Positions 20,866 through 22,408 of a DNA stretch of 57,678 nt are shown one piece after another (the first letter of the stretch is position 1; every line of letters starts with the position of its first letter). The notes under the pieces were generated by a model, which had not been told where the DNA came from, did no database searches, and saw nothing but the letters and a program-made list of their open reading frames with translations. The translations under genes and the position numbers were made by a program. The stretch covers positions 1-57,678 of the forward strand of contig NZ_BMXG01000026.1 in NCBI RefSeq assembly GCF_014651635.1, given 5' to 3'. The stretch comes from Cerasicoccus arenae (GTDB taxonomy: Bacteria > Verrucomicrobiota > Verrucomicrobiia > Opitutales > Cerasicoccaceae).

Positions 20866-21285
20866 CTACCGCAGCATCTCGGGGTCAACGGGCTCGGCAA
20901 ACTTATAATCCGCCCGTAAAAGCTCTGCGAGCAGAAGTTCAGTGTCTGGTGCCAAGGCTTGACGAGCAGCGTCGAACTCAGGAGTACCGGGGGGATATTT
21001 AATCGCTTCCTCGTGGGTACGCTTGGGCTTGGAGGAAACGAGCATCTCGCTCTCTGGCGCATCGCTATCGGACGCGTCATCGGCGGAATGCGCGGCGCGA
21101 TTCCACTCATCTTCCGTTGGGCCATCAGCATGCTGTCGGCCCGCAGGTGATTCTGTGGGCAGGCCAGTAGCGCGGGCAATCGGTCCCTCAGGTGGTGCCT
21201 TGGTGTTGGGCATGGAGCCCAACGGCGGAATCGGCCCGTTACTCACGGGCGCGGGCGATACCTCTATTTTTTTTTTGGCCGGCAT
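20866..21285 (-). CDS. Probable tau-specific C-terminal extension of DnaX (reached by slippage)
   Basis: This reading frame overlaps the end of the short dnaX frame, offset by one base. It begins at ATG 21285 ([10 protein letters not shown]) and encodes 139 residues: a Pro/Ala-rich and acidic linker, then a helical tail ([27 protein letters not shown]). It could be an independent overlapping gene. But its position directly behind dnaX, with A10 in the overlap, fits the long tau form that normally binds polymerase alpha and DnaB. With one A fewer in the transcript, dnaX would read straight through to give about 513 residues. A one-base assembly error would give the same picture. Confidence 0.55.
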
Positions 21286-22408
21286 CCTGAGGGAGGCCGG
21301 CGGCGAGGTTCGATAATTCTTTAATAACCGAGTCAATCGCCCGGCTGCGGCTCTGGTCAACAGCCCGCAAAAGCGCGACCTCAAAGTTAACGCGTTGTGA
21401 CAGACCGCTACGCACTTGGCTTTCGCCGGACTGCAAAGCGTCGAGCATACGAGCAAGCGATTCCGAGGTCAACGGCGCGCCGAGGCTCTCGGTTGTGCCA
21501 CCACCGCGGATGGCTTCGATCATGGCCTCGCGAGTGCGAGTCTGAATGTCCAATAAAACACGGTAGAGGTCACGCCCCTGACCAGCGATTTCTTCAATTG
21601 CAGCAAACAGCGCCTGATAATCCGCCGCCGCGATGGCGCGAACCATCTGGTCGATCATAGCCGGAGCAGCGAGGCCATAGACGTCGAGCGCCTTCTCCTC
21701 GGTGATGTCGTTGCCGCAAAATGAAATTAACTGATCGAGAATCGACTGAGCATCCCGCATTCCACCGTCGGCCATGCGAGCAATGGCCTTGAGCGCACCA
21801 GCGTCAACCTTGATATCGTCCGTGTCTGCGATCATCCGAAGGCGCTCGATGATTTTTTCATCTGGAATTGGCCGGAATTCAAAGCGCTGACAGCGGGAGA
21901 CGACGGTCGGTAAGACCTTATTGGCCTCGGTGGTCGCGAAGATGAATTTCACGTGCGCTGGTGGTTCCTCAAGGGTCTTGAGCAAAGCATTCCATGCAGC
22001 GTTCGAGAGCATGTGCACCTCGTCAATGATGTAGATCTTAAATTGGCCAACGGTCGGCGAGTATTGGCACTCTTCGCGCAGATCACGAATCTGATCAACG
22101 CTGCCGTTGCTGGCACCGTCAATCTCGATTACGTCCATGCAGGAGCCGTCGAGAATCGATTGGCTGATCGGCGTGGTGTCATCCGGCGCAACAGCTGGAC
22201 CGCCCTCCGCATTGAGCGCCTTGGCGAAAATACGCGCCGTAGTCGTCTTGCCAGTGCCACGCGGCCCGACAAACAGATAAGCGTGCGCAATGCGGTTGCT
22301 TTCAATCGCGTTCTTCAGAGTGCGGACGATGTGCTCCTGTCCGACCATTTCGTCGAACTGCTTGGGGCGCCAGCGCCGCGCGATGACTTGATATGCCTCT
22401 TGCGCCAT
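21239..22408 (-). CDS. dnaX: DNA polymerase III gamma/tau subunit, short (gamma-like) frame
   Basis: 389 residues from ATG 22408 ([15 protein letters not shown], the canonical start). The frame upstream to 22474 is not needed. It has a AAA+ clamp-loader ATPase with Walker A GPRGTGKT (48-55), Walker B IYIIDE followed by VH (126-132), sensor region [25 protein letters not shown], and the DnaX lid and collar domains to about 360. The four zinc-binding cysteines usual between residues 64 and 95 are absent. Only one Cys (C90) remains there. The zero frame stops soon after an A10 run, so as written this encodes the gamma form, which loads the beta clamp together with delta (holA at 57094) and delta'. 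Confidence 0.9.
21267..21276 (-). promoter_or_regulatory. A10 slippery run in dnaX
   Basis: In the coding strand ten A residues lie between GGCC and TAGAGG, eight codons before the stop of the zero frame. Deleting one A or adding two would connect DnaX to the downstream 139-codon frame. Thermus thermophilus dnaX uses a run of nine As for transcriptional slippage to make tau and gamma, and E. coli uses ribosomal frameshifting at a shorter A run. The location here fits the same job. Confidence 0.55.

Follow-up and report, generated by a model that had tools for sequence, protein, structure and literature searches.

A putative programmed slippage site at a conserved A run in dnaX of Cerasicoccus arenae and other Opitutales

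The dnaX gene of the marine bacterium Cerasicoccus arenae probably gives rise to both gamma and tau by programmed transcriptional slippage at a run of ten As. Comparative data indicate programmed slippage rather than a broken gene, and by the same comparison the run is a genuine, conserved recoding site. The gene was found in a stretch of 57,678 bases, here called the window, on contig C26 of a 4.13-Mb assembly of 63 contigs that is 97.6% complete. The run, the frames around it, the tau tail and a hairpin at the run are present in the window and conserved among relatives. Sites of this kind are already known from the A9 slippage of Thermus and from the A10 two-ORF dnaX genes of Antonov et al. 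2013, as far as the available accounts describe them; the opposite direction, the hairpin on the 5′ side and the switching of the default product among closely related species appear to be new here. A plain reading of the genome yields a truncated, tau-less dnaX in most of these genomes.

The product of this minus-strand gene was identified as DnaX by NCBIfam TIGR02397 (E=1.1e-122), and the AAA+ clamp-loader core and domain III are present, as seen from matches to PF13177, PF22608 and PF12169. Within the best 80 of 110 relatives, Cerasicoccus maritimus and C. frondis are the nearest named species, with 90-91% identity over the gamma part. The zero frame (21239..22408, minus strand, TAA included) starts with the ATG at 22408 and encodes a gamma-like protein of 389 residues. 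The A10 run is located at 21267..21276 (minus strand; T10 on the plus strand) and corresponds to A9-A11 in most relatives. Gamma is closed by the TAA at 21239..21241 (minus strand), eight codons past the codon with the last As, whereas one added A (A11) leads immediately to the TAG that adjoins the run (21264..21266, minus strand). The loss of one A brings into frame a tau-specific tail of 132 codons plus stop (20866..21264, minus strand), joining the 381 residues up to ...QKKI to 132 more, for a total of 513 residues. An ORF of 139 codons (20866..21285, minus strand) overlaps the zero frame and opens with an ATG at 21285, such an ATG being rare here among the relatives. A conserved helical piece with the pattern F..A...P......L...FRA.F forms the C-terminal end of the tail (20869..21003, minus strand). 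The length of the zero frame and the distance of its stop, the overlapping frame with its ATG and the size of the fusion had all been claimed in a first-pass annotation of this DNA and were reproduced by reading the sequence and its ORFs. Its account of the run and the frames was borne out, but it did not include the RNA hairpin GCCGGC-(CTCCCTCAGGAT)-GCCGGC (21278..21301, minus strand), which lies 1 nt 5′ of the A10 run and has an energy of -15.7 kcal/mol when folded alone.

In the proposed mechanism, the 9- to 10-bp RNA-DNA hybrid of an RNA polymerase that has just transcribed the run would consist entirely of rA:dT pairs and could realign by one base. Gamma would be encoded by transcripts carrying A10 or A11, and the 513-residue tau by those with one A fewer (A9). 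The GC-rich hairpin, formed by the nascent RNA one base 5′ of the run, probably promotes slippage, and the parallel with Roseiflexus IS630 suggests that it would favor the loss of a base. A more far-reaching version, which we advance tentatively as coming close to probable without reaching it, is that a terminator-like nascent hairpin next to an A9/A10 run drives a directional one-A loss in an essential gene in part of the Verrucomicrobiota, and that the default product has drifted at least 11 times while both proteins were kept. In that version one slip always swaps gamma and tau, so that a single-base change in the run only switches the default product. If true, the making of both gamma and tau would be maintained by selection in a large order despite the flips of the default at the DNA level, supporting a real need for gamma, and this would be the first known hairpin-assisted polymerase slippage in a housekeeping gene.

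The 4.13-Mb genome contains 31 A or T runs of at least nine (33 overlapping 9-mers). Two of these are ten long, and of the two only the dnaX run falls inside a long ORF. Within the window, A9 matches were not rarer than in shuffled sequences (3 found, mean of 1.24, 18 of 100 shuffles reaching 3); given this unremarkable count, the case rests on the relatives. At least nine As were found at the dnaX site in 58 of the 65 Opitutales loci of the genome-search set, outside which stand four Opitutales genomes that gave no dnaX match (G010, G021, G026, and G042). After the addition of named genomes the figure was 114 of 128 distinct loci. This set is slightly biased: of the six peptides used as queries one overlaps the site, and the relatives were limited to the best 80 of 110. 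Among the 14 loci that lack such a run, two have A8, and L111 is broken by Ns. In the upstream coding DNA of the same Opitutales genes, no run of at least nine As was found in 138,834 nt, in which lysine is encoded by 997 AAA and 1170 AAG codons. Away from the site, two such runs occur in 50,937 nt of tau tails, and these were counted against the slippage reading.

Several neighboring observations were made in the course of these searches. The only other A9 run of the window (28482-28490) is in no ORF of at least 60 codons. In L018/L056, L043, and L086, the Opitutales dnaX has A5 or A8, no run of nine, and tau in frame. A 347-aa ORF that is Ppx/GppA-like by eye (L143:471-1514) closes just past an A9 run (...HEKKM stop); it was rejected as a further slippage gene and resembles an ordinary gene end. 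Weak DnaX similarity was also detected at G000:C1:139975-140640 (L003, L004) and G000:C20:62146-62562 (L002), in ORFs of 494 and 333 aa, which probably encode other AAA+ replication or repair proteins.

Clear regularities emerge when the frames past the run are compared. For each locus, the reading length past the run was determined with the genomic number of As, with one fewer and with one more. The counts comprise 111 loci; both they and the tree omit L107 (chimeric), L102 and L106 (contig ends), L111 (Ns), and L049, all of which are within the 128. Both non-tau frames are closed within 10 codons past the run in 99 of the 111 loci, as compared with an equally early double closure at 11% of 31,144 gene-body control positions. 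Tau is in frame in 25 loci, needs one A more in 70 and one A fewer in 16, the window being among the last; A10 with gamma in frame is the commonest state (72 of 111). Comparison of the dnaX 3′ ends of relatives, along the lines of a check proposed in the first-pass annotation, showed that the run, the tau frame, and the early stops are retained in most of the order, which lends good support to its idea of a gamma/tau gene with A-run slippage like that of Thermus. On a quick tree of the gamma part, the architecture changes at least 11 times, a count that is approximate given that 47 of the 120 inner branches have less than 80% support. In the in-frame A9 loci, the loss of one A leads to a stop at once in 14 of 14, making loss the cleanest switch in the hairpin group, and the gain of one A leads to a stop after 3-27 codons. 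Two further arrangements in the family of the window, L010/L036 and L011, have A9 followed by TCTGA, with gamma in frame and tau needing one A fewer; there, the switch is achieved beside the run rather than through a longer run.

In the three sampled congeners dnaX is uninterrupted, with A9 and with tau in frame, and the change in architecture of the window lies on its own terminal branch beside them. There is a considerable chance, short of a probability, that the genome truly has A9 like its congeners, the tenth A being an assembly or sequencing error or a mutation acquired in culture, and that tau is in frame. All three other genomes of the genus and the confinement of the flip to this one branch are in its favor. 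So is the finding that the match of dnaX and its opposite-strand ORF was the sole frame-changing one for 10 congener ORFs over 7.5 kb of the window. In addition, the zero-frame stop of the window is as distant as the stop reached by congeners with one A more (8-9 codons), as if untuned. On the other side, A10 with gamma in frame is, in view of its frequency among the 111 loci, a viable state, and several other A9 runs of this genome are found inside intact ORFs of 196 to more than 1000 codons (L136, L137, L140, L146, L154, L155, and L163). If the genome did have A9, slippage would make gamma, as in Thermus; the default product would be altered and the device unaffected. The first-pass annotation had held that relatives with an uninterrupted dnaX and no A run would speak against slippage; congener dnaX is indeed uninterrupted, but it carries A9 at the same place, so that A9 and A10 resemble alternative states of a single device. 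One more run of nine, L150:1501-1509 (G000:C10), is located where an ORF for a trypsin-like protease of 422 aa seems to begin; there, a 97-codon frame that ends at the run could hold the protease signal peptide, and a stretch upstream is masked. This run may be a second slippage site, a wrong start call, or a break, and as a second break it would favor a true A9 in dnaX.

The tail was analyzed with a profile made from 25 in-frame tau tails, from which L107 was left out. This profile matched 66 of the 86 out-of-frame tails at E<=1e-3, always in the predicted tau frame (15 of 16 in the class needing one A fewer, 51 of 70 in that needing one more, 20 missed), and it gave no match on the other two frames of the 86 loci (172 sequences). 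When the three congeners were removed, the profile still matched the tail of the window at 3.5e-10. Judged by these matches, the tau tail is homologous regardless of the frame it occupies. Between the window and the three congeners, the dN/dS of the tail is about 0.11-0.17 (dN 0.31-0.37; dS 1.9-3.3, near saturation), and third codon positions vary most. In the alignments with two of the congeners all gaps are multiples of three; with the third congener, gaps of 1 and 7 lie on opposite sides. These values reflect selection along the branch and say nothing of the A10 being old. It has also to be considered that the tail is a decaying remnant and that the species lives on gamma alone. The closure of gamma in frame 0 would agree with this, but the low dN/dS, with mostly third-position changes, and the recurrence of the same split gene throughout the order make it very improbable. 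Even more doubtful is translation of the second frame alone, by re-initiation at the ATG at 21285, to give a free tau tail. Such an ATG does open the second frame in the window; however, an ATG near the junction is present in only 9 of 86 two-frame loci, a start together with a Shine-Dalgarno-like sequence in 5 of 86, and the in-frame relatives carry the tail as a fusion with DnaX. The predicted structure of the tail consists of a low-confidence linker and a short conserved helical end (mean pLDDT 70.9, pTM 0.34; block means of pLDDT of 91-95 for residues 91-120). Sequence searches of the tail against Pfam and PDB gave no match, and the term tau-like is accordingly based on the fusion to DnaX in relatives and on the homology between tails.

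The hairpin on the 5′ side of the run has an energy of -16.8 kcal/mol in its 40-nt context, and 4 of 200 shuffles were equally stable. Median energies of run-abutting hairpins are -12.6 for loci with tau in frame, -9.0 for those needing one A fewer, and -5.5 for those needing one more, versus -2.5, -2.8, and -3.5, respectively, at control positions. A hairpin like that of the window, at identical spacing, is present in 17 loci, namely, the window and 16 relatives; the 17 are made up of all ten sampled members of its family and seven loci from elsewhere in the order. Covariation is seen in pair 4-21 (G-C to A-U in L016 and L098) and in pair 6-19 (C-G to A-U in L081). Over the 17 loci, 3 of 500 shuffles and none of the slid controls equaled the covariation score, 22 of 500 shuffles attained the count of double-changed pairs, and pair 7-18 is unpaired in most loci. 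All 17 loci use GGC for the glycine that precedes the run, the sole column with a fixed wobble base among 66 near-invariant ones; the wobble base of the proline codon in the hairpin loop is free. Synonymous recoding according to the codon use of each gene gave a mean z of -1.65 in the 17 loci versus -0.10 at 391 control sites, and in the window the observed structure was more stable than the recoded ones (z -3.1, p 0.002). Evidence in single loci is modest, with 7 of 17 at p<=0.05 and the three congeners at z -0.2 to -0.3. Averaged over each class, z is -1.04 for loci with tau in frame, -1.27 for those needing one A fewer, and -0.24 for those needing one more. As a whole, these data suggest a selected nascent-RNA hairpin adjoining the 5′ side of the run, of the IS630 type, with mixed support from individual loci. 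Two further associations were tried and discarded. A tie of the hairpin to slippage direction (p 6e-5 without kinship correction) and a tie to A9 over A10 (raw p 2e-6) were not significant in tree-independent pairs.

It is unlikely that the ribosome rather than the polymerase shifts at the A run, in the window by +1 and under the influence of the 5′ hairpin as it refolds. The frame outcome would be identical to that of losing one A. To our knowledge, ribosomal +1 shifts do not usually take place on A runs, and ribosomal shift sites need 6-7 As, whereas of 116 distinct Opitutales loci with at least A8, 114 have a run of nine or more. No conserved Shine-Dalgarno-like sequence is found between the hairpin arms, and it is absent in L005, L081, and L010. 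A conserved downstream stimulator hairpin was also rejected, since the 50 nt 3′ of the run are not unusually stable (113 loci, median percentile 0.38); those of the window itself are fairly stable (percentile 0.08 within the gene; shuffle z -0.86). An upstream hairpin that stimulates +1 and attenuates -1 shifting has been described in a 70S system (PMC6321510), at a site that the account gives as CUUUGA and not as an A run. A ribosomal -1 shift could not yield tau in the window, as it leads into the adjoining TAG (21264-21266).

Polymerase slippage is further favored by the direction of the required change, which differs among relatives (one A more in 70, one fewer in 16). The use of both directions among relatives is given as a sign of transcriptional realignment by Antonov et al. 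(PMC3711429). The genome has 42 tRNA genes, including one for Lys-UUU and one for Lys-CUU, and Atkins et al. (PMC5009743) connect the presence of two lysine tRNAs with polymerase slippage in Thermus. The floor of nine As, the two directions, and the two lysine tRNAs favor the polymerase over the ribosome as the seat of the putative slip. Like this assignment, the occurrence of slippage, its rate, and the contribution of the hairpin are inferred. Counting against this reading, deletions in E. coli reporters were reported on poly(T) and none on the poly(A) runs examined there (PMC6260861), so that for an A to be lost, either the hairpin or another kind of polymerase would be required. In frame 0, the heptamer A_AAA_AAG of E. 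coli occurs in 47 of the 70 loci needing one A more, in 1 of the 16 needing one fewer, and in 1 of the 25 in-frame loci. Most relatives of the first class could therefore, to judge from this motif, use a ribosomal -1 shift, and in this class both the ribosome and the polymerase may be involved.

The run is general in dnaX of the Opitutales and patchy elsewhere in the phylum. Among 64 distinct loci from other Verrucomicrobiota, 15 have at least nine As at the site, a share that is not strictly unbiased, as the 64 were hand-picked at about one per genus and L269, a second member of its genus, was chosen for its short-looking frame. Two closed frames end within 11 codons in all 15. One of these loci outside the order, L264 (G179:C32:5295-9434), has A9 with tau in frame, an immediate stop upon the loss of one A, and a perfect 8-bp hairpin adjoining the run that beats all of its own controls. 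L264 is perhaps an independent copy of the Cerasicoccus arrangement.

The window shares features with several systems, of which the dnaX genes are the closest. In Thermus thermophilus dnaX, transcriptional slippage occurs at A9 (Larsen 2000, via PMC1088944 and PMC5009743). Common to both are an A9-type run late in the gene near stops in the other frames, the products gamma and tau, and two lysine tRNAs. Compared by description, tau is in frame in Thermus and the accounts available mention no 5′ hairpin, whereas in the window gamma is in frame and the loss of an A gives tau; the congeners represent the Thermus arrangement plus a 5′ hairpin. Antonov et al. 2013 reported 17 two-ORF dnaX genes from 12 genera, nine with A10, in a set that includes 4 Verrucomicrobia genomes, the species of the nine A10 genes being given in its supplement (PMC3711429). 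With these genes on record and the run widespread in the Opitutales, the window is not an isolated new case, which corrects the earlier annotation. In the open-access literature, judged by listing, this paper was the only relevant one on frameshifting or slippage of dnaX in Verrucomicrobia or Opitutales. Gamma in frame 0, A10, and tau obtained by recoding are shared with these genes, but at the DNA level each of the 17 is described as -1, and the window is the opposite, requiring one A fewer; the direction of one base more is that of 70 of our 111 loci. A conserved homopolymer of about nine or more past the core, a conserved tau reading, and early stops otherwise, which are typical of the Thermus and Antonov genes, are all present.

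In E. coli, too, a single dnaX gene yields gamma and tau, there through a ribosomal -1 frameshift at an A-rich site, and the gene is described as having A_AAA_AAG, a 5′ Shine-Dalgarno sequence, a 3′ hairpin, and tau in frame (PMC3711429, PMC5009743). This heptamer is lacking in the window, where a T follows the run, and the conserved hairpin of the window is 5′; the combination of a frame-0 A_AAA_AAG with a 3′ stem-loop and a 5′ Shine-Dalgarno sequence is not found in it. With respect to the hairpin, the open-access sources consulted revealed no earlier case of hairpin-assisted polymerase slippage in a housekeeping gene, and the nearest parallels are mobile elements. IS1447 resembles the window in having an A9 run past a predicted hairpin, its A8 form giving the full-length product, and differs, according to the same source, in slipping both ways at about 16% each and in that two As of the run pair in the hairpin (PMC6211511). 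Stem-loop-mediated slippage was reported for Roseiflexus IS630 (Penno 2015, via PMC5009743). As described there, this element differs in being a transposase gene with a T5C5 run, and it has in common with the window a GC-rich inverted repeat of 6 bp immediately 5′ of the slippery run and a one-base omission that leads to the functional product.
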